Shown here: positions 7,798 through 24,773 of the stretch, piece by piece
Position numbering within the stretch: the stretch's first letter is position 1
Layout of the letters: every line of letters starts with the position of its first letter
DNA from: a virus
Length of the DNA stretch: 64,000 nucleotides
Virus record (IMG/VR): IMGVR_UViG_3300020202_000002
Coordinates: 1-64,000 of that record
Reading direction: 5' to 3' (one strand)
Notes under the pieces: generated by a model
The model's input: only the letters and a program-made list of their open reading frames with translations
What the model was told of the DNA's origin: nothing
The model's database searches: none
Made by a program: the position numbers and the translations under genes

Positions 7798-8205
7798 ATG
7801 ATGCCGAGGAGCAACGAACACCGGCGTTTGGTTCCGTTCATGAACACCGTCGTCATGGAGCCGCGCACCGACGAGGAGTGTCTTGTCGGGGCCGACTATA
7901 CGGACGAGGAGAGAGAGTTTCTTCTGGCAGTGGACACCTACAAGCGGCGTGTCAATCCGAGGCCGTCGTGGGCGGAAGTTCTGCGCCTCGCGAAGGCGCT
8001 GGGCTATCGTAGGGTGGCCGAACGCTCTCCGGCCATTCCTGACGGGCACAGGCGCTGTCGGGGGTGCGGCGAGGACAAGCCGGCGACCACGGAGCACTTC
8101 TATCGGAACACCAAGGTGCCCGATGGCTGGAGTACACATTGCAAGGTCTGCGATTCCGAACGAACGTTGCTCTGGAAACAGCGGAGGCGAAATGTTCCAC
8201 GCTGA
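7798..8205 (+). CDS. Zinc-ribbon protein (endonuclease VII-type ribbon)
   Basis: A 135-residue protein starting right after the previous stop, with GGGAGGG upstream. The C-terminal 45 residues hold a CRGCGEDKP...FYRN...CKVC ribbon, the four-Cys module found at the front of phage endonuclease VII and HNH proteins. The nuclease part that normally follows is absent, so it may be a stand-alone DNA- or protein-binding ribbon. The N-terminal 80 residues are helical and unassigned. Confidence 0.6.
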   Translation: MMPRSNEHRRLVPFMNTVVMEPRTDEECLVGADYTDEEREFLLAVDTYKRRVNPRPSWAEVLRLAKALGYRRVAERSPAIPDGHRRCRGCGEDKPATTEHFYRNTKVPDGWSTHCKVCDSERTLLWKQRRRNVPR

Positions 8206-8368
8206 ATTGCTCGAACGCCACCTGTTGCCTGAGGAATCTGAGAAGGTCCTGCGCGATCGCACCGGCAGCGATGAAGCGTCCGAAGGCGCGTTCGTATTCC
8301 TGCTGCTTTACCTAGTCGCTGCTGGTGGCTTTGTGGCCTGGGGGTGCGTGAAAACTTTGGCCCAGTGA
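8192..8368 (+). CDS. Small single-span membrane protein
   Basis: A 58-residue protein. GCGGAGG at 8181-8187 supports the ATG at 8192, which overlaps the previous gene by 14 bases. Residues about 35-55 form one hydrophobic helix (AFVFLLLYLVAAGGFVAWG) after a charged N-terminus. Could be a small phage membrane protein; function unknown. Confidence 0.55.
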   Translation: MFHAELLERHLLPEESEKVLRDRTGSDEASEGAFVFLLLYLVAAGGFVAWGCVKTLAQ

Positions 8369-8391
8369 TAAGATAACGATACGTCGCAGAA
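8367..8391 (+). promoter_or_regulatory. Candidate promoter element before the portal gene
   Basis: GATAAGATA at 8367-8375 is followed after six bases by CGTCGCAGAA at 8382-8391, 15 bases before the portal start. Nearly the same pair (GATAGGATA, seven bases, CGTCGCAGAA) lies at 38225-38250 before the first glycosyltransferase. TAAGAT at 8369-8374 could be a -10 box. No clear -35 is seen. Two matching copies ahead of module-start genes suggest a shared regulatory element. Confidence 0.35.
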
Positions 8392-8406
8392 CAGGAACGG
8401 CACCGC

Positions 8407-10767
8407 ATGTCCACGAACCCCGCGACGCCAGCCACCAACGGCACGGCCAACGGCCATACTACGCCCCACGACCCCTACAGTGCCTTTCGCACACCGGCGC
8501 CGGACCCGCGCACCATCCAGGCCGTCCTCGATCGGCTGAGCACCAACGCCTACAGCATGCGGCGCGAGATCCTGAACCGTCTCATCGACCCGCGCCGCAA
8601 TATCGAAGCGGAATGCGGTTATCCGCAAAACGGCGACTGGATTCCTCCCCAGCTCTACCAGAATCTCTACGACCGTGAACCCATCGCAGCCCGCGTGGTC
8701 GACGTGTTCCCGAAAGAAGCCTGGCAGACCACACCCAGCGTGTTCGAGTCCGAGAAAAAAGGCAAGACCCCGTTCGACCAGGCGTGGAAGGAACTGAGCA
8801 AGCAACTGCGCGGCGAGAAGTGTTTTTATCAGGACGAAATTGGTTCGCCGGTGTGGGATTACCTGAAGCGGGCCAACATTCTCTCCGGCATCGGCAGCTT
8901 CGGAATCATCTTGCTGGGGTTGGACGACGGCGGCAGTCTGGACCAGCCGGTCATTTCTGCGGAACTAGCTGCGCAGGCAGCCAACCAAAAGCGGAAGACT
9001 AAGCGAAAGATTAGCTGGCAGGCCATGATGGCGCTGAACAAGCAGGTGGCAATGGAGAGGCCACAGACCGTCATGTTCAAGCCGGTGAAGTTGAAGGGGC
9101 GTGACCTCGAAGGCGTTGAGGTCGAACGCGAGATCGTCACAAACGAGCAGGCAAGCGCGCGGAACGCACATTTGGTGGCCGCGGCGAAACTCTGGGCCAA
9201 GAAAGACAAAACGCTGACAGCGAACGCCGTGGACAGCGTGGCGCCGGCGGTGATTCAGCCTGGCTACGGCCGGGGTGTGCCCGCTGACGACGACTGGGTG
9301 ATGCGGCAGTACGCCGAAGTTGGGACCGAGGCCCTGTACCAGCCAGCTGGTTTCAGCCCGCTCGGTCCAGGCGAGGAGCACAAGTCCGGCCCGCCAAAAC
9401 TGTTGTTCCTGCGAGTCTTTCCGGAGTCGCTTGTCCAGATCGTGCAGTACGAGTCCAACAGCCGCAGCCCGCGCTTTGGGCAACCCGTCCGCTACCTGGT
9501 CACGCTGAACGACCCTCGGGACCAGCACGCCGGCATCGGTCTGGCTCTCGCCACGGTCTATGTGCATTGGACTCGCATCATCCACATCGCGGACAACCTG
9601 GAGTCGTCCGAGGCGATCGGCGTCCCGCGCATGCGGCCTGTGCTCAACCGCCTCATCGATCTGCAGAAGCTGTACGGCGGTTCGGCCGAGATGTATTGGC
9701 GCGGGGCGTTTCCCGGCCTGGTGGCCGAATCGCAGCCCGGCTCGGATATCGTCACCGACATGGCGGACATGCGCAACCAGTTGGAAAACTGGACCAACAG
9801 TTTGCAGCGTGCCATGGCCACGGCTGGCTGGACCTTCCGGATGCTGTCGCCCACGGTGGTGGATCCGGGCTCACAGATCAACGTGCAGCTCGAAGCCATC
9901 TGCATCAAGATGGGCATCCCAAAGCGCGTCTTCATGGGGTCGGAGCGCGGCGAACTGGCCAGTAGCCAGGACGATAGCGCCTGGAACGACCGCCTGCGCG
10001 AGTACCGCGACAACTACATCACGCCCCGGATTATCACCCCGTTCGTGGACCGTTTGATAGCTGTCGGCGTGCTCCCCGAGCCCAAGGGGTACAGCATCAA
10101 GTGGGAGGATCTCGAAAGTCACGACGAGCAGACGAAGGCGCAGATTGCCGCAACCACGGTCGGTACGCTCGCGTCCTACGCAAACGGTGGCGTGGAGACT
10201 GTTCTACCTCTGCGCCGGCTGTACACGGACGTGCTGAAGATGGAGGACTCCCAGGCCGACGCCATCATTGACGAATTGGTGAAGTCTCAGGAGCAGGGCA
10301 TGATGACGCCTAGCGCCGACCAGCAGCAGACCGAGGCTGCAACCGCGAAACTACAGGCCGAGCAGATGCAGGCCGAAGGGCAGCCTGTCGAAGCAACGCC
10401 GGAGGAACAAGCGGCGCAGGCAAGCGAGCAGACGATGATTCAGGACCAGGCATCGCAATCGTCCTTGCAAACGATGCTCATGGAAGAGGAGGTCAAGCAG
10501 GCGCAGATTCAGACCAAGCAGATGGCGAAGGGACCGCCAGCCCAGAAGAAGCCAGCCGCCAACGCTCGCAAGAAATCGAACAAACAGGGCACCTTCGTCC
10601 AGAATCCCTTCAAGAGCAAGGCCCAGCGCCGGTTCATGTACGCGACCGATCCCGAGTTGGCCAAGGAGTTCGAGAAGAAGACCAAGGGCAAGAAGCTACC
10701 AGAGCGGGTGAGAAACGTCCTCGAAAAGATCCTGGCTTACCGCGCGAAAGAGAAGCAATCCGCATGA
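8407..10767 (+). CDS. Phage portal protein (DUF1073-like)
   Basis: A 786-residue protein. The core (about 55-610) has the DUF1073/phage_portal_3 pattern: a helical N-terminus (RREILNRLIDPRRN), ARVVDVFPKEAWQ, and a region with long helices near EVYWRGAFPGL-type sequence followed by FMGSERGELASSQDD. It forms the dodecameric portal at one capsid vertex. Residues about 630-720 are an unusual Gln/Glu/Ala-rich helix. The last 60 residues hold an NPFKSKAQRRFMYA motif found at the C-termini of many portal and MuF-type proteins. An ATGA overlap couples it to the sigma gene. Confidence 0.88.
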   Translation: MSTNPATPATNGTANGHTTPHDPYSAFRTPAPDPRTIQAVLDRLSTNAYSMRREILNRLIDPRRNIEAECGYPQNGDWIPPQLYQNLYDREPIAARVVDVFPKEAWQTTPSVFESEKKGKTPFDQAWKELSKQLRGEKCFYQDEIGSPVWDYLKRANILSGIGSFGIILLGLDDGGSLDQPVISAELAAQAANQKRKTKRKISWQAMMALNKQVAMERPQTVMFKPVKLKGRDLEGVEVEREIVTNEQASARNAHLVAAAKLWAKKDKTLTANAVDSVAPAVIQPGYGRGVPADDDWVMRQYAEVGTEALYQPAGFSPLGPGEEHKSGPPKLLFLRVFPESLVQIVQYESNSRSPRFGQPVRYLVTLNDPRDQHAGIGLALATVYVHWTRIIHIADNLESSEAIGVPRMRPVLNRLIDLQKLYGGSAEMYWRGAFPGLVAESQPGSDIVTDMADMRNQLENWTNSLQRAMATAGWTFRMLSPTVVDPGSQINVQLEAICIKMGIPKRVFMGSERGELASSQDDSAWNDRLREYRDNYITPRIITPFVDRLIAVGVLPEPKGYSIKWEDLESHDEQTKAQIAATTVGTLASYANGGVETVLPLRRLYTDVLKMEDSQADAIIDELVKSQEQGMMTPSADQQQTEAATAKLQAEQMQAEGQPVEATPEEQAAQASEQTMIQDQASQSSLQTMLMEEEVKQAQIQTKQMAKGPPAQKKPAANARKKSNKQGTFVQNPFKSKAQRRFMYATDPELAKEFEKKTKGKKLPERVRNVLEKILAYRAKEKQSA

Positions 10768-11408
10768 GTGCAGTCCGCGATGGCACCGTGGGCTACGATC
10801 GCCGGCTGCAACGCCTGGAGCGCGTGCGCGACGATGAGGCTCGCAACGAGTTGGCCGAAAAGAACTGGAACCTCGTGCGTGCTGTCTGCAAGCGCCTCAT
10901 GTACCGCATCGAGGCGGCTCGCGTCGACCCGGACGATGTGATTGGTGCAGGATGGTTCGGCCTGTTGCGTGCCGCAGAGCTATATGAAGAGATTCAGCCT
11001 GACGGCCGGCGGATTCGCTTCTCGACCTACGCGAACTACTGGATCGAGCAATACATGGTTCGCGAGATGAACAGCCTAGCCCATTGCAATCTGGGCGTGA
11101 GCATTGACGCCGTGCTGCCGGAGAGACGTAGCTGGCAATCCAGGAACAAGACGCTCGCCGATTGCGTCGAGGAAGAGGACGGCGAAACGAACGTCCACGT
11201 TCCCTCGTCTGATTTGCGCGATTTGTTGTGTTCTCTGAAACCGCGCTATCGCCATGCTCTCGAATGCCGATTCGTCCTGAACATGGCCTTGCACGAGACG
11301 GGCCGCGAGCTGGGCGTCAGTAGGGAGCGAGCGAGGCAAATCATCGAGCAGGCGTTGAAGCTGGTGCGCAAGCGGGCGCAGGAAATTGGGCTGGATGCCA
11401 TAGCGTGA
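10764..11408 (+). CDS. RNA polymerase sigma-70 family factor
   Basis: A 214-residue sigma factor. Region 2 is at about 55-100 (DPDDVIGAGWFGLLRAAELYEE, FSTYANYWIEQYMVREM), with the aromatic-rich melting segment kept. Region 4 is at about 160-200 (RYRHALECRF, then the HTH ELGVSRERARQIIEQALKL). Region 1 is absent and region 3 is short, like small group 3/4 or phage sigma factors. It should redirect host RNA polymerase. It lies inside the head operon, ATGA-coupled to the portal gene, so it would be made late and could amplify late transcription. Confidence 0.88.
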   Translation: MSAVRDGTVGYDRRLQRLERVRDDEARNELAEKNWNLVRAVCKRLMYRIEAARVDPDDVIGAGWFGLLRAAELYEEIQPDGRRIRFSTYANYWIEQYMVREMNSLAHCNLGVSIDAVLPERRSWQSRNKTLADCVEEEDGETNVHVPSSDLRDLLCSLKPRYRHALECRFVLNMALHETGRELGVSRERARQIIEQALKLVRKRAQEIGLDAIA

Positions 11409-11724: not shown

Positions 11725-12370
11725 GCACTGGTTCACATGCGTCCTGCGCGGCTACAGGACAGGTGTCGAACGCGGCTACGACGACGTGCACCGGCGAAAG
11801 CGAGCCATCCTGCGAACCCCGGTCGAGGTGGCCCGCTACGAAGCCTTGAAAGCAGACACGACGCGCCGCGTGCTCGTCGAAAAAGCCGTGCGCCGAGGTT
11901 ACGCCGATCTGACAGCCAACAGCATAACCCAGGCTGTATTGGACTTCATCGCTGGTCTTGACCTGACCGTTCTCATCGGCATCACGACAGCCATGGCGGC
12001 GCAAATCGTGGCGGCTCTGTATGACGGCGTGTTCTGGGGCAAGTCGCTGTCGCAGATCGTCCTCGACATTTACCAAGCCGGCGTCGACATGAACCGGGCG
12101 CGAGTGATTGCCGAGACGGAACTGACCCGTGCCTACGCTGAGGGGCAATTGGACGTGATCCAGCAGACCAGCCCGCTCGGCCCCAACGCACCTGTGACGG
12201 CCCTCGTCGAATACACGACCGCTGGCGACGGCAACGTCTGTCCGCAGTGTGCGAGTTTGCAGGGGCAGATTTTCACGGTGGCGTCGGCGCGCGGAGTGAT
12301 TCCAAGGCACCCGCGCTGCAGGTGTACCTGGAAAACTGCCTCGATTGTTCCCAAGCCGAAAGCCGCGTAG
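11606..12370 (+). CDS. MuF-like head morphogenesis protein
   Basis: A 254-residue protein with the phage Mu F/SPP1 gp7 C-terminal signature: ARVIAETELTRAY, then CPQCASLQGQIF (Cys 212 and 215) and IPRHPRCRCTW (His 235, Cys 238 and 240). The conserved Cys/His set is thought to bind zinc. MuF proteins enter the prohead with the portal and assist DNA packaging or ejection. The order portal, (sigma), MuF, protease/scaffold, capsid matches the family. ATG 11606 is the longest start; shorter ones exist. Confidence 0.85.
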   Translation: MSATVSPRINPLRLDPQRLATLRRHMTANLQNLKGNALLKHWFTCVLRGYRTGVERGYDDVHRRKRAILRTPVEVARYEALKADTTRRVLVEKAVRRGYADLTANSITQAVLDFIAGLDLTVLIGITTAMAAQIVAALYDGVFWGKSLSQIVLDIYQAGVDMNRARVIAETELTRAYAEGQLDVIQQTSPLGPNAPVTALVEYTTAGDGNVCPQCASLQGQIFTVASARGVIPRHPRCRCTWKTASIVPKPKAA

Positions 12371-12378
12371 GAGCACTC

Positions 12379-12630
12379 ATGCCGATGGCCGCAAGGAAAG
12401 CGTTCACCGAGACGGAACAGAAGATGCTTGATGTTCTCGCGGATGGCGAGCCGCACACCTACAAGGAACTGCAGGGCTGTCTTTACGACGAGCAGGGCAC
12501 GTACCGCAACGTCGCCCGCCACATGTCCCGCATTCGCAAGCGTCTCAAGAAGAAGGGCGAAACGATCGTGTGCGTCTGGCATAAGCGGAAGCACTGCTAC
12601 CAACACGTTGCCTTCAAGCGCAAATCTTAG
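12379..12630 (+). CDS. Winged-helix DNA-binding protein
   Basis: An 83-residue basic protein. GTAGGAGC upstream supports the ATG at 12379. FTETEQKMLDVLADGEPHTYKEL resembles the opening of trans_reg_C/OmpR-type winged helices, followed by a recognition-like helix (NVARHMSRIRKRLKKKG) and a two-strand wing (ETIVCVWHKRKHCYQHV). Small phage proteins of this type usually act as local transcription regulators. Paired palindromes start just 13 bases after its stop (12643-12679), so it may regulate the next promoter. Confidence 0.6.
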   Translation: MPMAARKAFTETEQKMLDVLADGEPHTYKELQGCLYDEQGTYRNVARHMSRIRKRLKKKGETIVCVWHKRKHCYQHVAFKRKS

Positions 12631-16202: not shown

Positions 16203-17444
16203 ATGTACGCATTCACGGATTACGTTCAGAACGGCCGGGGCTTCGGCGAGGTCGGACAGATGCTGCAGGGCGTCCACTACGACCCCAACCTTCTGCGTCC
16301 CTACTGGCACAAGGGCAAGCAGATGGTCACCTACAACACCGGCCGGCGCGTGGCCAACGGCGGCAAGGACGACGGCGCATGGATCCTCAAGGAAGCCCCT
16401 ATCGCCGATCTTCGCGCCCGCTATGGCTGGAACCCTCCGGTGTGGAACGCCACGTCGCTCCGCAAGGAAGACTGGATTCACCTCGACACCACGGTCCGGC
16501 AAGCAGCCCGCCCGCGGCTCAAAGCGTGGAACGATCTCGCCAGCCGCTGCTCGGTGTCGGTTCCCAACGCCATGGGCAAGACCGTCTACGAATACGAAAC
16601 CTCCAGCGACCCCGGCTTCGCGCTGGTCGACATGGACGGCGTGAAGGAAGCGTGGGGCGATGACGAGCAGTTCCAGCTGCAGGCCGTGCCCCTGCCGATC
16701 ACGCACGCAGGGTTCCAGTGCACGGCCCGCCATCTTGCCGCGAGCAAAGGCAGCGGAGGCAGCTTCGATACCCGCATGGGCGAGAAGGCCGGCCGTCGCG
16801 TCGGCGAAGCCATCGAGCGGACCCTGATCGGCGTGCAAACGGGACTCGCGTTCGGCGGCACAGGACGATACGACTCCGGCATGGCCTATGGCCGCGCCTC
16901 GCAGGTCTACGGCTACACCAACTTCCCGCAGCGCCTCACCAAGACCAACCTGGTCAGCCCGACCGGTGGCTCCTGGACGCCCGACGACACCGTGAACGAT
17001 GTGCTGGCGATGATCGACCAGCTCACGGCCAACTTCTTCTACGGCCCGTTCATGGTGTACCACAGCAACGACTGGGACCGCTACATGAACGGCGACTACT
17101 ACGTGTCGTCCGGCGCTGGTCTCGTCGCCCCGTCCAAGACTCTCCGCCAGCGACTGAAGGACATCGAGGATGTCGTCGACGTGAAGCGCCTTGACTTCCT
17201 CACGTCGGCCGCACTTGGCGTCACCTCGCCGTACGGTCCGACCACGGCCAACCCGTTCACGCTAATCATGGTGCAGATGACGAAGGAAGTCGTGTGTGCC
17301 ATTAACGGCATGGACATCACGACCATCCAGTGGGAGGAGAAGGGCGGCATGCTCTTGAAGTTCAAGACGCTCGCCATCCAAGTGCCGCTGATTCAGGCGG
17401 ACTTTTACAACAACTGTGGGCTACTCCACGCCACTACGTCCTAA
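16203..17444 (+). CDS. Major capsid protein (HK97-fold candidate)
   Basis: A 413-residue protein with a strong ribosome binding site (CAGGGAGAAA). Size, the mixed alpha/beta sequence, lack of signals and place right after the decoration gene mark it as the major head protein. Segments such as GEKAGRRVGEAIERTLIGVQTG, MVYHSNDWDRYMNGDYY and TKEVVCAINGMDITTIQWEEKGG fit the E-loop/P-domain pattern of encapsulin-like HK97 capsid proteins. No cleavable delta domain is obvious, consistent with a separate scaffold. Confidence 0.8.
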   Translation: MYAFTDYVQNGRGFGEVGQMLQGVHYDPNLLRPYWHKGKQMVTYNTGRRVANGGKDDGAWILKEAPIADLRARYGWNPPVWNATSLRKEDWIHLDTTVRQAARPRLKAWNDLASRCSVSVPNAMGKTVYEYETSSDPGFALVDMDGVKEAWGDDEQFQLQAVPLPITHAGFQCTARHLAASKGSGGSFDTRMGEKAGRRVGEAIERTLIGVQTGLAFGGTGRYDSGMAYGRASQVYGYTNFPQRLTKTNLVSPTGGSWTPDDTVNDVLAMIDQLTANFFYGPFMVYHSNDWDRYMNGDYYVSSGAGLVAPSKTLRQRLKDIEDVVDVKRLDFLTSAALGVTSPYGPTTANPFTLIMVQMTKEVVCAINGMDITTIQWEEKGGMLLKFKTLAIQVPLIQADFYNNCGLLHATTS

Positions 17445-17531: not shown

Positions 17532-18041
17532 ATGAAGTTTCGGATTTTGATCGGTCGCCACATCGACGAGCAGGGACGCCTCTACGAAGGCCCCTTGCCA
17601 CCGCGCGGAGTTCCTGGCTCGCCGGACTACAGGCCAGGCAAAGAAGGCGATGTGATCGACACCACGCTTGATCTCGTTACCCGCTTCAACCAACCCAATT
17701 CGATCAAATTCGCCCAGGTCGACGAACTGACTCCGGCGAAGTACGAGGACCCGGCAAAGACCGGTGCCAACGAAGCGGCCTACCTGGAGAAGCAACTGGC
17801 TTCCGTGCAGGAGCGTCTCAACGCCGCCAGGGCTCGCGCAACGCCCGCACCTGTTCCCGATGCGGCGATTACCGACGCTGGCAGCACGGCTACGGCGGTC
17901 GCGGATCGTCCCAAGGTGCACGACAACATGAGCCTGAACGATCTTCGCCGCATGGCGCAAGCCGAGGAGATCGACGTGCCGGCCGACTGCGCCAACGACC
18001 GGAAGAAGTTGCTTGCGCATTTGCGATCGAAGGGCTTCTGA
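17532..18041 (+). CDS. Head-module protein with SAP/Rho_N-like C-terminus
   Basis: A 169-residue protein; GAGGAGAAAG upstream decides the ATG at 17532. Residues 1-60 are beta-rich, 75-105 form an Ala/Arg coiled helix, and the last 38 residues (SLNDLRRMAQAEEIDVPADCANDRKKLLAHL) match the helix-extended-helix of SAP or Rho N-terminal domains, which bind nucleic acid. Proteins of this layout are often found after phage capsid genes as connector or head-completion candidates. Exact role unknown. Confidence 0.6.
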   Translation: MKFRILIGRHIDEQGRLYEGPLPPRGVPGSPDYRPGKEGDVIDTTLDLVTRFNQPNSIKFAQVDELTPAKYEDPAKTGANEAAYLEKQLASVQERLNAARARATPAPVPDAAITDAGSTATAVADRPKVHDNMSLNDLRRMAQAEEIDVPADCANDRKKLLAHLRSKGF

Positions 18042-18045
18042 TCCA

Positions 18046-18088
18046 CAGTGGTGGCCGCAGCTCGCCCCAGCGTCCGGCTGCCACACTG
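18046..18088 (+). other. Stem-loop at the boundary of the head module and inserted cassette
   Basis: CAGT(G)GTGG(CCG)CAGC at 18046-18061 pairs with GCTGCCACACTG at 18077-18088: 12 pairs with two left-side bulges. It lies five bases after the SAP-like gene stop and marks the junction with the cytochrome cassette. No T-run follows. Confidence 0.4.
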
Positions 18089-18098
18089 AGGATGGGTG

Positions 18099-18392
18099 AT
18101 GAATGAACACGTCTACGAGCAAATCAGCTGGATCGGTGCCATCATCGTTGCGCTAGGTGGGGGTACCGGCGTAGGCGCAATCATCAAAACCGTATGGGAC
18201 AAGTGGCGTGACTCGAACCGCGACGCCCACAAAGCGAAACGAGAAAACCGCGATGCCGTGATCAAGGAATGGGAGCGGCTGACGGACAGGTTGGGAGAGC
18301 GGATTCAAGAACTTGAAGCGCAACTGGAGCGGGCGCAGGACAAGATCACCGCCATCATCCTGGAGAACGCTCGGCTGAAAGGTGACGAATGA
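18099..18392 (+). CDS. Membrane-anchored coiled-coil protein
   Basis: A 97-residue protein with one N-terminal transmembrane helix (about 10-30, ISWIGAIIVALGGGTGVGAII) and a long charged coiled coil (40-95). ATG 18099 and GTG 18096 are both possible; GAGGATGG precedes. The layout resembles phage XhlA/holin-like or membrane-tethered signalling accessory proteins. It is the first gene of the atypical cassette and overlaps the receiver gene by ATGA, so membrane localisation of a signalling partner is conceivable. Confidence 0.6.
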   Translation: MNEHVYEQISWIGAIIVALGGGTGVGAIIKTVWDKWRDSNRDAHKAKRENRDAVIKEWERLTDRLGERIQELEAQLERAQDKITAIILENARLKGDE

Positions 18393-18865
18393 CTCGGAAG
18401 CTGGACCGAGTTCTGGTCGTGGAAGACGAGAAGGAGGCAGCCGTCCTTCTCCGCGAGGTCATGGCCGAGGCTTACGAAGTCGCGACCGCCGGCACCATTG
18501 CCGAGGGTTTGACCAAGATGGAAGGAGTTCACGCCATCTTGCTTGACCTCAGGCTTCCCAATGGTCAAGGCTGTGCCGTCATCAGAAGTTTCCACGAACC
18601 CCACCCGAACGTTCCCATCGTTGTTCTGACCGGCTGCGATGTGAACGAGCCTGAGGCGAAAGCTGCCGGCGCTCGACGTATCCTGCGAAAGCCTCAAGAG
18701 TCGCTGGCGGTGATTGGCGCTCTGCACATGGCCATCGCTGGTCCGCAGGCTGCAGAGTCGGCCGCGCGGAAGGCCAAAGAGATGATGGAGCCCGCGCTGG
18801 CAACCGTGCAGGAAATCAAGTCCACGCAGGAATCGCTGGCCAGCACGGGGAAAGAGGGAAAGTAA
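18389..18865 (+). CDS. Stand-alone response-regulator receiver domain
   Basis: A 158-residue CheY-like receiver. Acidic residues VVEDE (12-14), phosphoacceptor D53 (LLDLRLP), switch T81 (VVLTG) and K101 (LRKP) are all in place, so it should be phosphorylatable. No DNA-binding or enzymatic output follows; residues 103-158 are a helical tail. Receiver domains are rare in phages and here no kinase is visible, so a host histidine kinase would be the donor. Its start overlaps the preceding stop and its stop overlaps the cytochrome start, tying all three together. Confidence 0.85.
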   Translation: MTRKLDRVLVVEDEKEAAVLLREVMAEAYEVATAGTIAEGLTKMEGVHAILLDLRLPNGQGCAVIRSFHEPHPNVPIVVLTGCDVNEPEAKAAGARRILRKPQESLAVIGALHMAIAGPQAAESAARKAKEMMEPALATVQEIKSTQESLASTGKEGK

Positions 18866-20649
18866 TGCGTGGCGTCGTCGCGGCAATCTGTTCGCTCATC
18901 TTCGCTGCGCCTCTTCTGGCGCAGGAACCCGTTAAGATCACGCGCCTACCCGGTCCGAATGAGGCCCTTGCGCTGGCCAAGGCCGACGCCGACACGCTGC
19001 CGCGCGAAATCTGCTGGTGCGCGCGCTACATCTGGATAACCTCAGGCGATATCGACGACGCCCGCGCCATCTCGGACGCCATCAACCGCGTGTCGCGCTC
19101 GGCGCGCATCTACCGGCCGGTTTTGATCGGTAAAGACAAGCTGCTGGTGGCTCGTGTCGAACTGCACAAGTATGCCCTGACCGACAGCGATTTGCAGGAA
19201 CTGACTGCGCTCTGGGAGGAGCTGCAATTCGATCCGGCGCTGAGCTTCTTCATCACGAAGGGCATGATCCGCCTGGCGCTCGAGCGTGAGTTGCCGCTGA
19301 AGGGTCACGGCACGGTCAAGCGGTGGATGGAGATTGCCGGCAAGAAACGGCTGATCAAAAAACGAGAGGCGTTCGACATCACCATTGACGCCGAGAACAT
19401 CGAACTGATCCGCACGCCTGATCCTGAACTGGACCCGGACCTGCTGGCGTCTCTCGTGGAACTGACTGGCTCGAATGCGCCGCTGGTGACGGACCGATAC
19501 TTCCTGGCCCGCGTCATGGCGACGATCCAGGGCAAACAGACGACATACAAGGAAATCTTCGGTGGGCTGTACTACCAGTTCGCGGGAATCAAGCGCGGCT
19601 TCAAGAAGGGAACGGATGAGGACAACTTCCTCGAATCGCTGGGCATCGGCAACGTCGCTCAGGGTGTGACGGCCAAGCAGGTTTTCGACAAGATCCCGTC
19701 GAACCAGAAAGTCGGCGTGGCTCACTCCCGTTTGCACGGCCGCCCGCGCATCGTGGAATACTTGCCCACGATCGCCGCTGAAGTCGGGCAGGCGGAAGGC
19801 TTGGCCGTGTTCACGCTGGACGGGTTCGACGAGGACATAGACGTTGACGAGAACCCGCTCGACAACCTGGCCAACTTCAAGGCCCGCGCGAAGGAGTGCA
19901 TCTACATCCGGTTGAACGGTATGCACGGCTACGCCCTGTTCGACGAGCAAGGAGCACTGGCCGACGAAGTGCCGTTCAACGTTGCGAACGACAGGAACAT
20001 CACGCAGCCGCGCACGATGCGATTGCAAGCGGCGGTTTCCTGCATCGGCTGCCATGAGGCCATGGGACAAGATGGCTGGCACCCGATCACCAACGACGTG
20101 GCGAAACTCGACGCGATCGGCCTGTTCCCGTTCGGCATCTCGCGGCTGAGCCGCCAAGAGCGCGAGAAACTGCGAGCCCAGTTCACCGGCAACCCTGAGC
20201 GGGCGCTGCAGAGGTCGCGGGACGACTTCAGTCTCTCGGTATTCCGCTGTACCACCGGCGAAGGGTATGGCCTGTGGAAGCAGTCGAAGACGCAGACCGA
20301 CGTGGTGAAGCTGAGCGCCGAACGCATCGCCAACGGCTGGCGGTCGTACTTCTACGACGCCGTGGGCGCACGGCAGGCGCTGTTGGAGTGCCGCATCCGA
20401 GTCGAAGCCAAGGACGCCGACGAAGAGGCAAAGAAGGCGCAGGCTCTCGTCAAGCAACTGATGGAAGCCACGATCCCGCCGATTACGCCCCTGCACCACC
20501 TGGGCGACCTGGTTGTCCAGGAAAGCAGGCCGATCGCGCATCTGGTGGCGGGAACGCCGATCACGCGAACCGATTGGGCGCTGGCGCGTCCGGTGTTTGC
20601 GGAGCGCGTGCGCAGGGCCATGAAGGTGATGTTCAAGGAGAGCAAATGA
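18865..20649 (+). CDS. Large secreted c-type cytochrome-like protein
   Basis: A 594-residue protein with an N-terminal signal peptide (cleavage near AAPLLAQ, about residue 20). One haem c site CIGCH lies at Cys393, Cys396 and His397. The 370 residues before it are unrecognised alpha/beta sequence; the C-terminal 100 include a coiled segment. Export and haem attachment would need host cytochrome maturation. The family looks like uncharacterised planctomycete extracytoplasmic proteins. ATG overlaps the receiver stop by one base. Electron transfer is the likely general role; partner unknown. Confidence 0.75.
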   Translation: MRGVVAAICSLIFAAPLLAQEPVKITRLPGPNEALALAKADADTLPREICWCARYIWITSGDIDDARAISDAINRVSRSARIYRPVLIGKDKLLVARVELHKYALTDSDLQELTALWEELQFDPALSFFITKGMIRLALERELPLKGHGTVKRWMEIAGKKRLIKKREAFDITIDAENIELIRTPDPELDPDLLASLVELTGSNAPLVTDRYFLARVMATIQGKQTTYKEIFGGLYYQFAGIKRGFKKGTDEDNFLESLGIGNVAQGVTAKQVFDKIPSNQKVGVAHSRLHGRPRIVEYLPTIAAEVGQAEGLAVFTLDGFDEDIDVDENPLDNLANFKARAKECIYIRLNGMHGYALFDEQGALADEVPFNVANDRNITQPRTMRLQAAVSCIGCHEAMGQDGWHPITNDVAKLDAIGLFPFGISRLSRQEREKLRAQFTGNPERALQRSRDDFSLSVFRCTTGEGYGLWKQSKTQTDVVKLSAERIANGWRSYFYDAVGARQALLECRIRVEAKDADEEAKKAQALVKQLMEATIPPITPLHHLGDLVVQESRPIAHLVAGTPITRTDWALARPVFAERVRRAMKVMFKESK

Positions 20650-20879
20650 CTTCGATTCTGCTGACAGTCCTCGGCACTGTCGTCATCGCAATGCTGGCCC
20701 GCGGATTGGCCAGCCTTGACGGTGCCGATTGGGGTGCAGTGGTTCTGGTCGCCGCCATTGGTCTGGTGGCGGTGCTGGTCGGCATGGCGTGGCTGGACAA
20801 CAACGTGGATGGCCTTCGTGCGGCTGGCGACCAAGGCGGGGTGGACAGCCGCTCGGCCTATATTCACGACAGTCGGTGA
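20646..20879 (+). CDS. Small two-span membrane protein
   Basis: A 77-residue protein whose ATG overlaps the cytochrome stop (ATGA), with AAGGAGAGC just upstream. Two hydrophobic segments (about 4-20 and 29-47) separated by a short charged loop; C-terminal tail soluble. Such small two-span proteins can be holins or cassette-specific anchors. No lysis gene stands beside it, so holin is only a possibility. Confidence 0.5.
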   Translation: MTSILLTVLGTVVIAMLARGLASLDGADWGAVVLVAAIGLVAVLVGMAWLDNNVDGLRAAGDQGGVDSRSAYIHDSR

Positions 20880-20895
20880 TGTTCAAGGAGAAGAG

Positions 20896-21192
20896 ATGAC
20901 TAAGTTCCGCAAGAAACCTGTTGTGATCGAAGCTGTGCGTTGGACGGGGCGAGAAGCCGATTTGCCGTCCGTGCTTTCTCTTGTGAACTTCGACAAACTC
21001 CCGAACAATGGCCCCGAGATCAAGCCTGGCATTGGCTTCACGCCGCCACTTGGAACACTCGACATCCCCACCCTCGAAGGGACGATGACGGCTCAGCCTG
21101 GCGACTGGATCATTCGCGGTGTGAAGGGCGAGATTTACCCGTGCAAGCCCGACATTTTCGAGGCGACCTACGAGCCAGTGGAGACACCGTGA
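20896..21192 (+). CDS. Conserved phage protein (FRKKPVVIEAV family)
   Basis: A 98-residue protein; CAAGGAGAAG upstream fixes the ATG at 20896. It carries the hallmark start FRKKPVVIEAVRW, then GTLEGTMTAQPGDWIIRG and a YPCKPDIFEATYEPV ending that recur in small proteins of very many phages. Biochemical role unproven. Its presence inside this cassette shows that phage genes are interleaved with the cytochrome genes, arguing against host contamination. Confidence 0.8.
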   Translation: MTKFRKKPVVIEAVRWTGREADLPSVLSLVNFDKLPNNGPEIKPGIGFTPPLGTLDIPTLEGTMTAQPGDWIIRGVKGEIYPCKPDIFEATYEPVETP

Positions 21193-21287
21193 CCCCGCTA
21201 GTCATCCAAATTGCCTGGGGAGTATTCGCCGCAGTCGTCGTTGGCTGTGTGATCGAGCTGCTGCTGTATCTGGGAGAATCGAAATGA
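21189..21287 (+). CDS. Single-span membrane micropeptide
   Basis: A 32-residue GTG-started peptide overlapping both neighbours by four bases (GTGA at the start, ATGA at the end). Almost all of it is one hydrophobic helix (VIQIAWGVFAAVVVGCVIEL) followed by a short charged tail. The double overlap suggests a genuine, translationally coupled membrane micropeptide ahead of the second cytochrome. Confidence 0.5.
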   Translation: MTPLVIQIAWGVFAAVVVGCVIELLLYLGESK

Positions 21288-22222
21288 GGACGTTCGCCTC
21301 GATCCTGCTCTTGTTCGCGGCCGGTGTCGCTTTCGCCGACGACGGTTACGTCCCCGTGGGCAACGGCATCTACCGCTACGGCAACGGGTCCGGCTACTAC
21401 AGGCGCAGCTACGTTCAGCCGTGCTACACCTGTGGACGGTATACCCCAGGCTACTTTCTCTACCAGCAGGTTGACTACACGCCGCCCGCTGCGAAGCCGC
21501 CCGAGCCCACGGACGACGACTTCGACACGAAGGTCATCGATTACCTGAGCCTCGAAGCGAAGCTGGCCCAACGTGCTGAGGTGATCAAAGCGCTCGCCTC
21601 GCGCCTGCCCGCGCGATCGCCGGTTCAATACGGGTACAACCTGACCGGCCAGAGCACGACGTACTACGGCGCTGTCCACGCCTACCAGCCGCCGCAAGCC
21701 CAACTGATCAACCCGAACGAGGCTTTGCACCAGTACGGGCGCATCGTGGAGAACGTGCAGACGGCGGGACGCGAAGCCGTGCAGGGTTTCGCCGGCGTCA
21801 CGGCCAACGTCACTGCGGAATCGACGAAGGCGGCACAGATCGCAGCGGCGCTGCACGGCGCGGCTCAGGTGGTCAAAGCCACGCAGGAAACCAAGGTACG
21901 AACGGAGCAGTTCCAGCTTCAGAGCGGTCCGGCCGATTTGCCACCGAAGCAGTTCGGACAAGGGAACGCCTGGGCCGCGAGCGCCCAGCGGTGCATCGCG
22001 TGTCACAGCGGAGCGAAGAAGGAAGGCGGCTTCGACGTGTCGACGTTCCCGACGATGGATGCGGAAGGCCAGCTAGGGGTGTTCAGGCGTCTCATGGAAA
22101 ACAAGCCTGGCAAACCGCGAATGCCGCTAAACGCAGATCGTTCGCCTGGGCAACTGCCCCCCAACGAACTGCACCTATGGATTCCCAAGCAGCCGGATGC
22201 CCAGCAGGCACCGGCGAAGTGA
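21284..22222 (+). CDS. Secreted monohaem c-type cytochrome
   Basis: A 312-residue protein with a clear signal peptide (cleavage near AGVAFA, about residue 18). Residues 25-60 are Gly/Tyr-rich with a CYTCG pair; 160-215 are helical and Ala-rich. The C-terminal domain has CIACH (Cys237, Cys240, His241) and a candidate axial Met280 in KPRMP, 39 residues later, as in class I cytochromes c. Phage coding is supported by the ATGA overlap with the micropeptide. Likely an electron carrier in the periplasm-like space. Confidence 0.8.
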   Translation: MRTFASILLLFAAGVAFADDGYVPVGNGIYRYGNGSGYYRRSYVQPCYTCGRYTPGYFLYQQVDYTPPAAKPPEPTDDDFDTKVIDYLSLEAKLAQRAEVIKALASRLPARSPVQYGYNLTGQSTTYYGAVHAYQPPQAQLINPNEALHQYGRIVENVQTAGREAVQGFAGVTANVTAESTKAAQIAAALHGAAQVVKATQETKVRTEQFQLQSGPADLPPKQFGQGNAWAASAQRCIACHSGAKKEGGFDVSTFPTMDAEGQLGVFRRLMENKPGKPRMPLNADRSPGQLPPNELHLWIPKQPDAQQAPAK

Positions 22223-22371
22223 ATGGTGCGACCGGGAATAAGGGGCTCCAGTACCGCACGCGAAGAGTGACCCTGAAAGACCCACAGGTGTAAGAGCGAA
22301 AGCCAAACACCGGTTGAAGCTCATAAGCGTGCCTTGGGTCGTACCTGGCTTTCTTTAACAAGGAGTTCGAC

Positions 22372-22539
22372 ATGAAGAAGTTTCTCGCTCTCGTTCTTGG
22401 CCTTGGCCTGCTCGCCGTATGCAGCGGTGACGCTGACGCCCGCGTGCGACGTGCCAAGGTGGTGGTCCGCCAGCAGGTGGTTCGCCAGGCCGTTGTGGTC
22501 GCGCCGGCCCGCACGGTGGTTCGCATCCGCACTCGCTGA
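22372..22539 (+). CDS. Small secreted basic protein
   Basis: A 55-residue protein with AAGGAG ten bases upstream. Signal peptide (LALVLGLGLLAVC, cleavage near ADA), mature part very basic and Val-rich (RVRRAKVVVRQQVVRQAVVV). Resembles small exported basic proteins often seen in planctomycetes. Function unknown. The 22223-22371 stretch before it holds no other gene that I can support. Confidence 0.6.
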   Translation: MKKFLALVLGLGLLAVCSGDADARVRRAKVVVRQQVVRQAVVVAPARTVVRIRTR

Positions 22540-22558
22540 GACAGGCAAGGCGATCGGC

Positions 22559-22633
22559 GTGGGGCTGATCGTCGTCTCGGTTCTCTGGCTCTGGCTCACT
22601 GCTGAGCCGTTCGTTTACTCGGAGGAACCATGA
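22559..22633 (+). CDS. Possible hydrophobic micropeptide
   Basis: A 24-residue GTG-started frame whose stop overlaps the next ATG (ATGA). The body is one hydrophobic stretch (LIVVSVLWLWLTA). AAGG at 22547-22550 could serve as ribosome binding site. Very short, so the call rests on the overlap and hydrophobicity only. Confidence 0.25.
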   Translation: MGLIVVSVLWLWLTAEPFVYSEEP

Positions 22634-22944
22634 AGAGGCTGATTCTCGCCGCTCTGCTGTGCCTGGCATTCGCGGGCAACGCATCGGCTCAGTTCGTTGA
22701 CGTGAGCGTGGGACGGCGGGTCTTCGCACCCCGCGTGTTCGTTCCTCGCGTCTTCGCCCCGCGCGTATTCGCGCCGCCGATCTACTCGGCCCCCGTGTTC
22801 TCCGCGCCCGTCTACTCGGCTCCGACGTTCGCCGATCCGTGCAGTGTGCCCCTGGGCACCTACAGCACGTTCTCGGTCCCGGTGTACTCCGCGCCGGCTT
22901 TCGTGCCGTTCCGCGCGTTCGGCACCACGATCATCGTGCGCTAG
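22630..22944 (+). CDS. Small secreted repeat protein (FAPRVF/YSAP repeats)
   Basis: A 104-residue protein with a signal peptide (cleavage near GNASAQ, residue 21). The mature part is tandem hydrophobic-Pro repeats: RVFAP/RVFVP units, then IYSAP, VFSAP, VYSAP units. CGGAGG before the ATG is a good ribosome binding site. Repeats of this type occur in planctomycete secreted proteins; function unknown. A strong intrinsic terminator follows. Confidence 0.65.
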   Translation: MKRLILAALLCLAFAGNASAQFVDVSVGRRVFAPRVFVPRVFAPRVFAPPIYSAPVFSAPVYSAPTFADPCSVPLGTYSTFSVPVYSAPAFVPFRAFGTTIIVR

Positions 22945-22978
22945 CGGCCTCAGACCACCCCAAGGCCGCTACCTGGGC

Positions 22979-23012
22979 CTCCCCGGCTGGCTTTCGTCAG
23001 TCGGGGAGTTTT
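22979..23012 (+). terminator. Intrinsic terminator of the cytochrome cassette
   Basis: CTCCCCGGCTG (22979-22989) pairs with CAGTCGGGGAG (22998-23008): 11 pairs including one G-U, 8-base loop, followed by TTTT. It lies 35 bases after the repeat-protein stop and should end or reduce transcription of the cassette. Confidence 0.85.
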
Positions 23013-23023
23013 AAGGAACAGAG

Positions 23024-23947
23024 ATGGCGAAGCGACGACAATTCATTCCCTGCACCGCGAAGGACACGCTTCCGACACCGGAACTGCGACTGCTCGCCGC
23101 CCAAAAGGCAGTCGAGGTCAACCCGGCCAACGCCGCGCCTGAGTTCGGCCTGCAACGCGCCATGGGACTTACGATGTCGGCCCTTGGCGCCGTCACCGAA
23201 CATGTGGCAGCGACCGCCGAACATTTGGCTCTCATAACCTCGAAGTGGTGGGGGCCGAAGGTGCGCCTCACCGTGTCGTTCATGGACACGAACGACCAAG
23301 CTCTCATCCAAATGATCCTGTCGCACCTGAATGCCTGGGGGCAGTACGGCGACATCGTGTTCTCCTGGACTCAACGCAATGGACAGGTGCGGATCGCTCG
23401 CGACCGACCGGAGAACTGGTCATTCATGGGGACGGACATCCTCGCGATCCCTCCGAACCAACCAACGATGATGCTGGGTGGTATGACGCTGAAAACGCCT
23501 GAGAGAGAACGAAGGCGAGTGATACGTCACGAAGCTGGTCACACCCTCGCATTCCCCCACGAACACTGTTTGCCGGAGATCATCGCCAAGATCGACCCGG
23601 CCAAAGCCATCCCCAAATTCATGCGGGAACAAGGATGGACGGCTCAGGAAGTTAAGAATCAAGTGCTCACGCCGCCCGATCCTCGCCACCTGCGAATGAC
23701 GGTGCACGCGAACCAGAACGGCATAATGTGCTACCGCATTACGGGAGACATCACATACGACGGCAAAGACATTCCAGGTGGCGAGGATATCGACGCCATC
23801 GACGGAGAGTTTTGCGGCAAGCAGTACCCGCTGACCGTGCCGCCATCGCCGCCAGTTTCCCTTGACGGCATCACGTTCGCCATAGCCACCGACCTTATCA
23901 CCGTCACGGCCCCGGCCAAGTACAAGACGAAACGAATCACAACCTGA
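23024..23947 (+). CDS. Metzincin-type zinc metalloprotease
   Basis: A 307-residue protein with the zinc motif HEAGHTLAFPH (His169, Glu170, His173, His179) and a Met-turn NGIMCY (Met235), the combination that defines metzincins; Ala replaces the usual Gly at position 176. No signal peptide is present, so it acts in the cytosol, leaves by lysis, or rides on the virion. The N-terminal 75 residues are helical. It sits alone with one small gene between two terminators. Possible roles: virion protein processing or host-surface digestion. Confidence 0.85.
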   Translation: MAKRRQFIPCTAKDTLPTPELRLLAAQKAVEVNPANAAPEFGLQRAMGLTMSALGAVTEHVAATAEHLALITSKWWGPKVRLTVSFMDTNDQALIQMILSHLNAWGQYGDIVFSWTQRNGQVRIARDRPENWSFMGTDILAIPPNQPTMMLGGMTLKTPERERRRVIRHEAGHTLAFPHEHCLPEIIAKIDPAKAIPKFMREQGWTAQEVKNQVLTPPDPRHLRMTVHANQNGIMCYRITGDITYDGKDIPGGEDIDAIDGEFCGKQYPLTVPPSPPVSLDGITFAIATDLITVTAPAKYKTKRITT

Positions 23948-23958
23948 AAGGATTGATC

Positions 23959-24264
23959 ATGAACCAAGAAGCCCTCAACATCTGCGCCCACGAGCTGGAA
24001 GAACTGCACGCCCACTTCCAGCCCCCCGAAGGAGCGCAGGCCGCGCCCGACGTATTCGGCTTGCTGAAGTTCATCCGCGACCTGACCGCTGCCATCAAGG
24101 CCGGCGACTACTGGGCCATCTTCGAAGCCGTGTACGAGATCATGGGCCAGTTCCGCAGAAAGCCCGAAACGGATGGGGGTGTTGCGTTCGCTCTGGGTGA
24201 TGGGACCTTGCGAAAGAAGCTGCTGGCGATCATCGCCAAGATCCTGGCCAGCCTGGGAGAGTAA
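23959..24264 (+). CDS. Hypothetical helical protein
   Basis: A 101-residue, mostly helical protein; AAAGGA upstream supports ATG 23959 (TTG 23953 is an alternative). Amphipathic C-terminal helix (RKKLLAIIAKILASL). Co-transcribed with the metalloprotease and followed by a terminator, so possibly its partner. No family recognised. Confidence 0.5.
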   Translation: MNQEALNICAHELEELHAHFQPPEGAQAAPDVFGLLKFIRDLTAAIKAGDYWAIFEAVYEIMGQFRRKPETDGGVAFALGDGTLRKKLLAIIAKILASLGE

Positions 24265-24275
24265 GCCAGCCTCGG

Positions 24276-24330
24276 TCCCCCGGCCGAGTCCCTGCTTTCC
24301 GCGACGCGCATACTCGGTTCGGGGGATTTT
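24276..24330 (+). terminator. Intrinsic terminator before the connector genes
   Basis: TCCCCCG(G)CCGAG at 24276-24288 pairs with CTCGG(TT)CGGGGGA at 24313-24326, followed by TTTT. It closes the metalloprotease unit; with the terminator at 22979 it isolates that unit from flanking operons. Confidence 0.75.
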
Positions 24331-24353: not shown

Positions 24354-24773
24354 ATGGCGGTCCGAACGACGGCAAATGCGGTCAAGAGTCTTCTGGAGGG
24401 CGACTACGACAAGAAGAACTCACCCAGCCTGACCCGCCACATTTTGTCCGCCTCGAAGATTATCGATCAGGTCGTGATATGCGCCACAAGGAAGGGACAG
24501 TCACACGACGATGAGACGCTTGAGAACTTGGAATGCTGGCTCGCTGCCTACTTCTACACGAAAGTGGACCGCATCCGCTCCAGCCAAAACACCGGCGGAG
24601 CAGGCGGGGCCATCATCCAGGGGACGACGGACCCCGAGCCTTACAAAGCTGCAGTAATGGAACTCGACACGACCGGCTGTCTGGCCGCGCTGCTCAAGGG
24701 TCAGCGCGGCAGCATCGTGTGGCTCGGCAAGACAGCTGGCGAACAACTGACCTACGACCAGAGGAATCCCTGA
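24354..24773 (+). CDS. Head-tail connector protein
   Basis: A 139-residue helical protein right before other neck proteins. Helical pairs with NLECWLAAYFYTKVDRIRSSQNTGGAGG and a C-terminal YKAAVMELDTTGCLAALLKG are typical of gp6/gp15-like adaptor proteins that sit below the portal. GCGGAG upstream. Assigned by pattern and gene order. Confidence 0.6.
   Translation: MAVRTTANAVKSLLEGDYDKKNSPSLTRHILSASKIIDQVVICATRKGQSHDDETLENLECWLAAYFYTKVDRIRSSQNTGGAGGAIIQGTTDPEPYKAAVMELDTTGCLAALLKGQRGSIVWLGKTAGEQLTYDQRNP

Follow-up and report, generated by a model that had tools for sequence, protein, structure and literature searches.

A stretch of 64,000 nucleotides, referred to below as the window (positions 1-64000 of the 88,746-bp IMG/VR virus contig IMGVR_UViG_3300020202_000002; viral, not host DNA), contains an intact gene set of ~6.3 kb that separates the gene for the major capsid protein (MCP) from that for the head connector. 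We found that this gene set is an exchangeable phage module, which has a fixed core of two haem protein genes, cyt594 and cyt312, is combined with a protease of variable family and is located in the late structural region. To our knowledge, phage-encoded c-type cytochromes have rarely been reported and are usually taken for metabolism borrowed from the host. The haem pair described here belongs to phages: every haem motif is kept, the pair moves between unrelated phages, and it accompanies four unrelated protease families. Viral contigs that were compared with the window are designated by L-numbers (L004, L005, L009, etc.).

The haem pair and its protease

The cyt594 gene (18865..20649; all features of the gene set are on the plus strand) encodes a putative exported c-type protein of a new family, with a signal peptide and one CxxCH motif for a single haem. 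A profile made from a four-member alignment matched 11 viral contigs; alignments of the whole family were too divergent for pattern scans. The family comprises 18 members (L006, L014, L055, L062, L063, L094 and L078 included). CxxCH is invariant in all of them, and the N-termini were signal-like in every member checked. A second conserved His or Met was not found among the 18 members, which suggests that the haem site is open, with no fixed distal ligand, and makes a haem enzyme likelier than an electron carrier. The sequence gave no Pfam, NCBIfam, confident PHROG or PDB-profile match and no match among 50,697 phage records or 72,556 plasmids, and a near-identical pattern scan of 84,980 bacterial and archaeal genomes, which is of limited sensitivity, did not reveal any relative. 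The AlphaFold model (pLDDT 86.7, pTM 0.87) was used for a Foldseek search against PDB and viral models, and no match was obtained at E <= 0.001.

A cyt312-type partner was found closely downstream of cyt594 in 18 of 18 loci. In the window, cyt312 (21284..22222) has a Tyr/Gly-rich N-terminus and a C-terminal class I cytochrome c domain. It has the features that define a c-type cytochrome, i.e., an export signal, CxxCH (18/18) and a distal Met (the Met of an MP motif, 17/18). Indeed, the haem-binding segment matches PSCyt1 (PF07635, "Planctomycete cytochrome C") above the curated cut-off, and weak profile matches to cytochromes c in PDB were also obtained. The N-terminus contains 11-36% tyrosine, and the start was signal-like in all proteins tested. 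The model of the full protein was poor (pLDDT 55), and a fold search with that model was uninformative. Single-sequence searches found nothing in viral contigs with cyt312 as the query and nothing in plasmids with the L028 form, because the N-terminus is of low complexity. In many relatives, cyt312 is followed by small low-complexity secreted genes, as it is in the window by the gene for a 104-amino-acid (aa) secreted Ala/Pro/Val repeat protein (22630..22944), which has a signal-like N-terminus and a homologue in L005.

The protease of the window (23024..23947) is a myroilysin-like astacin (M12A) metalloprotease without a signal peptide. It matched myroilysin both with a profile (A9; 5gwd, 1.5e-36) and as a single sequence (5zjk, 2.8e-15). 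Its zinc motif lies within an astacin-like catalytic domain, as is required for M12A, and its best relatives pass the Pfam Astacin cut-off. Relatives are encoded in L005, L014, L023, L029 and L094, and the HExxHxxxxxHE zinc motif is kept in the astacins of five phages. Cys10, within a short segment at the N-terminus, is also invariant in the phage astacins. By analogy with myroilysin, which is held latent by a cysteine switch according to a passage of PMC9848320 that cites Xu et al. 2017, the same latency is predicted for the phage enzymes. Other members of the group have enzymes of the S53 family (L009, L004, L028, L031, L062 and L055), a subtilisin (S8; L026) or a papain-like protease (L025; motifs QGPLGSCGPC, GGHDVV and NHWEGW, read by eye). 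The S53 enzyme of L009 matches kumamolisin (1e-80) over the mature domain only, the prodomain being absent. The assignment to S53 is based on the acidic motif ExxxD, read in L009 and L004, and on the serine motif GTSA, present in all five enzymes inspected. As judged by hydropathy only, a signal-like N-terminus is present in 1 of 13 proteases examined and missing from the other 12.

We tested for an association of protease and haem pair in 35 large contigs, 9 with and 26 without cyt594, counting proteases of the S8/S53 or astacin type. Such a protease was present in 7 of the 9 contigs with cyt594 versus 1 of the 26 without (Fisher P = 4e-5). If the S53 enzyme of L062, recognized with a profile of our own, is counted as well, the association rises to 8 of 9 (P = 3e-6).

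The cargo site and the exchange of the module

The nearest relative in an MCP search of viral contigs was L005, whose MCP is 86% identical to that of the window. At the same site, L005 has the order cyt594, cyt312, 104-aa protein, metalloprotease and a gene like that at 23959. The MCP, connector, adaptor and tail genes of the two phages are mostly 66-86% identical, and the cargo 37-49%. In L009, L014, L022, L006, L055, L062, L063 and L094, cyt594 is also in the MCP-connector interval, at MCP identities of ~40-55%. In total, the pair follows the same MCP as in the window in 10 of the 18 cyt594 contigs; the tenth carrier, L055, is a contig that stops short of the connector.

To survey the interval, 60 distinct MCP relatives in which the distance from MCP to connector could be measured were used after removal of near-duplicates. 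The gap was 800 bp or less in 27 (median, 515 bp), more than 1.5 kb in 31 and between these values in 2. cyt594 was within the gap in 9 of the 60, and every such gap was larger than 4 kb. Cultured relatives are compact, with gaps of 484 bp in Brevundimonas phage StAshley and 548 bp in Halorubrum phage Hardycor1. From the two classes of gap and the compact cultured relatives, we conclude that the MCP-connector interval serves as a cargo site, with the cassette as one of several cargoes. Related phages have the genes or lack them cleanly at a fixed site, which is the hallmark of a moron or cargo locus. The earlier note on this window, which was made from the sequence alone, had taken a small gap as the normal state, and the 27 short gaps agree with that; the comparison of gene order in related phages that it had called for was made, and genes were either cleanly absent or present in intact copies, with decayed copies nowhere seen.

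Hydrolases also tend to be found in large gaps that lack cyt594, i.e., papain-like proteases in L073 and, below the cut-off or by motif, in L054 and L049, and a trypsin-like protease in L011. Other contents of the MCP-connector gap were seen in single relatives: a Class-3 lipase, another envelope-type hydrolase (L050, 12566-13327; PF01764, 1.9e-24; no cytochromes), a secreted protein that is thioredoxin-like by eye and has no Pfam match (L047, 12883-13449), and a 372-aa CxxCH protein (L068, 10279-11397) that matches neither Pfam nor cyt594 or cyt312 and may be a further haem type.

If the module was inherited together with the capsid, the similarities of both should be correlated, but over pairs of the MCP family, MCP and cyt594 identities were uncorrelated (Spearman -0.19, P = 0.16). 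Therefore, the module has been exchanged among phages. The cyt594 tree intermixes phages of the MCP family with others, and L014 and L094, which are sisters in the MCP tree (99/98), are in opposite major clades of the cyt594 tree (100/100). Seven of the 18 cyt594 phages have no recognizable relation to the MCP of the window (L023, L004/L024, L025, L026/L030, L028, L029 and L031). In L029 the module is near the tape measure gene, away from the head genes, and in L078, which has a short MCP gap, the pair is located elsewhere. A 27-nt direct repeat, 89% identical, brackets the gene for a 77-aa membrane protein in the window (20625-20651 and 20875-20901); this suggests recombinational insertion, and the repeat may be a local trace of the insertion of the module.

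A chimeric assembly or a host fragment in the phage contig, which the unusual gene content by itself could indicate, is ruled out by the order MCP, cyt594, cyt312, connector, which recurs in independent contigs at MCP identities of 41-86%. Moreover, no relative was found in the 84,980 genomes at the sensitivity of the pattern scan, and we consider this explanation negligible. This upholds the earlier note, which regarded the set as an integrated unit of the phage rather than an artefact of assembly.

Gene layout and neighbouring genes

Eleven genes are present between a small conserved gene 3' of the MCP gene (17532..18041) and the head-tail connector-like gene (24354..24773). The MCP gene itself (16203..17444) is the left structural neighbour, and its relatives are annotated as MCP in phage contigs and cultured phages. 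The small gene is found in most short-gap relatives and is the ancestral content of the gap, and the connector-like gene, the right structural neighbour, has a conserved position after MCP in most relatives. The earlier note had placed between MCP and connector a membrane coiled-coil protein, a receiver domain, two secreted c-type proteins, small membrane or secreted proteins and a metalloprotease. The position is correct, all of these parts are present, and the two c-type proteins are real and strongly constrained. The gene at 20896..21192, which had been called a typical phage gene, indeed encodes a protein of phrog_419 (1.7e-35; function not assigned). The overlaps of 1-4 bases that had been described are found from 18389 to 21287, with one 16-nt gap, but not from cyt312 on, where genes are mostly spaced by ~80-150 nt.

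The first gene (18099..18392) encodes an optional coiled-coil protein with a single transmembrane (TM) segment by hydropathy. PHROG and Pfam matches are weak, and the protein is a candidate for a holin- or spanin-like function. Genes for TM and coiled-coil proteins are at the same place in L009, L004, L014, L007 and L094. A 77-aa membrane protein (20646..20879; hydropathy) and a 32-aa TM peptide (21189..21287; seen in the sequence), whose gene overlaps each neighbour by 4 nt, are also encoded. Small TM genes are found before or among the cytochrome genes in many members, and in L017 a weak holin-like match was obtained at the same site (phrog_1129, E = 0.0063). Downstream of cyt312 there is an open frame for a 55-aa basic secreted peptide (22372..22539) with a signal-like N-terminus and a Shine-Dalgarno-like sequence, and the protease gene is followed by that for a 101-aa protein (23959..24264), which has a homologue at the same place in L005 (38%).

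The protease unit is bracketed by two strong terminator-like hairpins, each followed by TTTT. The hairpin 5' of the protease gene (22978..23011) has a 13-bp stem, and the region 22965-23018 folds with -30 kcal/mol; this hairpin was not flagged by a stricter terminator scanner. The hairpin 5' of the connector gene (24276..24325) has a 14-pair stem. Like hairpins are present 5' of the connector gene in L014 and L094 and 5' of the astacin gene in L023. A promoter scan gave no sigma-70-like promoter, which is fewer than expected by chance. A sigma-70 family factor with regions 2 and 4 is encoded in the window between the portal and MuF-like genes (10764-11408), and L025 has a further sigma factor downstream of cyt312 (7838-8557).

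The stand-alone receiver (REC) domain (18389..18865; Response_reg PF00072, 3.1e-13) has the acidic pair, the phospho-Asp, the Thr and the Lys. A homologue with conserved catalytic residues is encoded directly upstream of cyt594 in L014, and L094 has a gene for a membrane-anchored PAS-domain protein in the cassette region upstream of cyt594 (12063-12518). The genes behind the "signalling" part of the earlier description are optional, with REC in both the window and L014 and PAS in L094; they may have a role in timing. L016, an MCP relative without cytochromes, has a stand-alone receiver gene directly 3' of the connector gene (10338-10766). Outside the window, genes for CsrA, a LexA-type DNA-binding protein and a stand-alone LuxR-type helix-turn-helix protein (98 aa) are consecutive at 72098-73208 of the record (L002 8098-9208). 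The last of these (~72.9 kb) and the REC protein at 18389 correspond to the two halves of a NarL/FixJ-type regulator.

Downstream of the tail genes, the window contains a very large surface-glycan gene set (36860-59993) that includes a sulfotransferase, UDP-glucose/GDP-mannose dehydrogenase, GDP-mannose dehydratase, epimerases, several methyltransferases, glycosyltransferases and a PIG-L deacetylase. Methyltransferase-like genes are also present upstream of the cassette of L004. A tyrosine-integrase-like gene with an Arm DNA-binding domain at 63563-64753 of the record indicates that the phage may be temperate, and a 461-aa open reading frame at 70408-71793 of the record (L002 6408-7793) looks by eye like a TnpB-type transposon nuclease.

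Possible functions and relation to known systems

Our preferred reading, which is tentative and drawn from the sequences, is that of a late envelope-takeover or egress module; viruses with the module seem to be equipped with tools of their own that act on the envelope of the host cell. Export of cyt594 and cyt312 would be by the Sec route; both would receive haem from the cytochrome c maturation system of the host and act outside the cytoplasm, with cyt312 (His/Met, class I) carrying electrons to or from cyt594 and cyt594 working as a haem enzyme rather than a carrier. The protease would be made without a signal peptide and remain cytoplasmic, possibly latent by means of the conserved N-terminal Cys (cysteine switch). 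Late in infection, small membrane proteins would breach the inner membrane and release the protease, which would then cut envelope proteins and so do the job that the endolysin does in other phages; in some members, the REC and PAS genes would tune the timing. The most specific form of the proposal is doubtful: an egress or envelope-takeover system, confined to viruses and transferable, that combines an exported haem pair (one of new fold) with an unexported, interchangeable protease as a substitute for the endolysin.

Amidase_2, M15_4, phage lysozyme (GH24) and SLT domains were found in 0 of the 35 large contigs and CHAP gave no match above the cut-off, with GH25, Amidase_3, M23, GH19 and others outside this search; endolysins were not seen among the Pfam matches of the window phage either. 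For comparison, 97.4% of bacteriophages with double-stranded DNA were reported to encode a lytic protein (PMC12596118). An unusual mode of lysis is plausible for the phage group. Since the protease lacks a signal peptide and the common endolysins are missing group-wide, envelope attack or egress is at least as likely as a role in respiration. Several observations weigh against it. The five endolysin families are equally absent from cassette-negative contigs, so there is no contrast, and therefore their absence speaks for the group and not for the cassette. Four of the 18 loci have no nearby protease (L006, L022, L063 and L078), and the TM proteins of the cassette gave no significant holin match. 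Lysis or proteolysis by the cassette is a prediction from sequence only, why lysis should need cytochromes has no explanation, and planctomycetes do possess peptidoglycan (PMC4432640).

If the module acted on respiration instead, the exported pair would divert or sustain host electron flow in the periplasm or detoxify oxidants, and the protease would clear competing envelope proteins. Two Sec-exported c-type proteins, a class I cytochrome with a conserved Met and the REC and PAS sensor genes of some members would be expected in such a periplasmic redox module, but no known respiratory protein was found to be related to cyt594, and neither the steady link with four protease families nor the missing export signals of the proteases are accounted for. 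We consider this possible but rather unlikely. The earlier note had proposed a change of periplasmic electron flow or envelope state; its observation is confirmed, its interpretation partly supported.

Secreted Tyr/Gly-rich haem proteins, together with the small secreted proteins, could also form a coat on the cell surface or cross-link it and thereby keep out other phages, as cargo for superinfection exclusion or lysogenic conversion. The hypervariable cargo site with its clean empty versions, the faster divergence of the cargo in L005, at 37-48% identity against ~75-86% for the flanking genes, the integrase arm domain in the contig and the 11-36% Tyr of the cyt312 N-terminus argue for this. 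However, the pair is inside the late operon in most members, the scan did not reveal the separate promoters that conversion genes should have, and a protease fits poorly; this explanation is unlikely. Even less probable is a packaging of the haem proteins or the protease in or on the virion for delivery at entry. The location among head genes and a protease without a signal peptide would be in line with it, but both haem proteins have signal peptides that target them away from the cytoplasm, the site of head assembly, and in some phages the module is not next to head genes (L078, and L029, where the tape measure gene is close by).

The MCP relatives in genome contigs were all on contigs of metagenome-assembled genomes from unrelated phyla, and thus no host can be named by the prophage route. 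Since cyt312 contains PSCyt1, the host probably belongs to the Planctomycetota. An isolated phage of Gemmata had not yet been reported in a 2017 paper (PMC5707555), and the module is a handle on the phages of this poorly known, probably planctomycetal, host group. The recurrent pairing allows a direct test. A module that opens the envelope would change the textbook rule according to which tailed phages use peptidoglycan hydrolases to lyse their hosts; as an egress system, it would be a second route for tailed phages through the bacterial envelope, redox linked and proteolytic. If it acts on respiration, it would be a novel way for a virus to control the periplasm.

No description of the gene set was found in the open-access literature, with subscription journals largely outside the search, in keeping with the earlier statement that no such phage system was known. 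The module is real and unprecedented in the sources searched; its location, a cargo site, is of an ordinary kind. As in holin-endolysin-spanin cassettes, small membrane proteins and an unexported hydrolase are encoded in a late cluster and unrelated enzymes are swapped at one site. Unlike in these cassettes, the enzymes are of secreted types (astacin, S53, S8, C1) rather than peptidoglycan hydrolases, the constant part is a pair of exported haem proteins, and a holin or spanin is only a candidate. The catalytic domain of the window protease (residues 82-271) aligns with the bacterial M12A enzyme myroilysin (5gwd, 5zjk), including the zinc motif and its flanks, and the N-terminal Cys is invariant in the phage family, but a signal peptide is missing from the phage protein, whose activity and switch are predicted from sequence. 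Likewise, the enzymes of L009 and L004 share the E..D catalytic motif and the GGTSA serine motif with kumamolisin and sedolisin (S53) but lack prodomain and signal peptide. In cyt312, the haem-binding segment resembles PSCyt1 (PF07635), but the match is limited to the first half of the model, and the Tyr/Gly-rich N-terminus is not covered by the model. The nearest phage c-type protein reported in the open-access literature is SoxD, which was identified as a homologue of host sulfane dehydrogenase (PMC8190135). Like the SoxC/SoxD auxiliary metabolic genes of phages (PMC8190135), the module includes a phage protein with a c-type cytochrome motif that would act outside the cytoplasm, but cyt594 and cyt312 are a phage-conserved pair with which proteases travel. 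Auxiliary metabolic genes are homologues of host metabolic genes, whereas cyt594 has no known cellular relative and only cyt312 has a known domain. We regard the module as a new kind of phage system because it has the defining properties of neither a lysis cassette nor a set of host-derived metabolic genes, and a constant haem pair with an interchangeable protease, which the earlier note had not recognized as the core, sets it apart from both.

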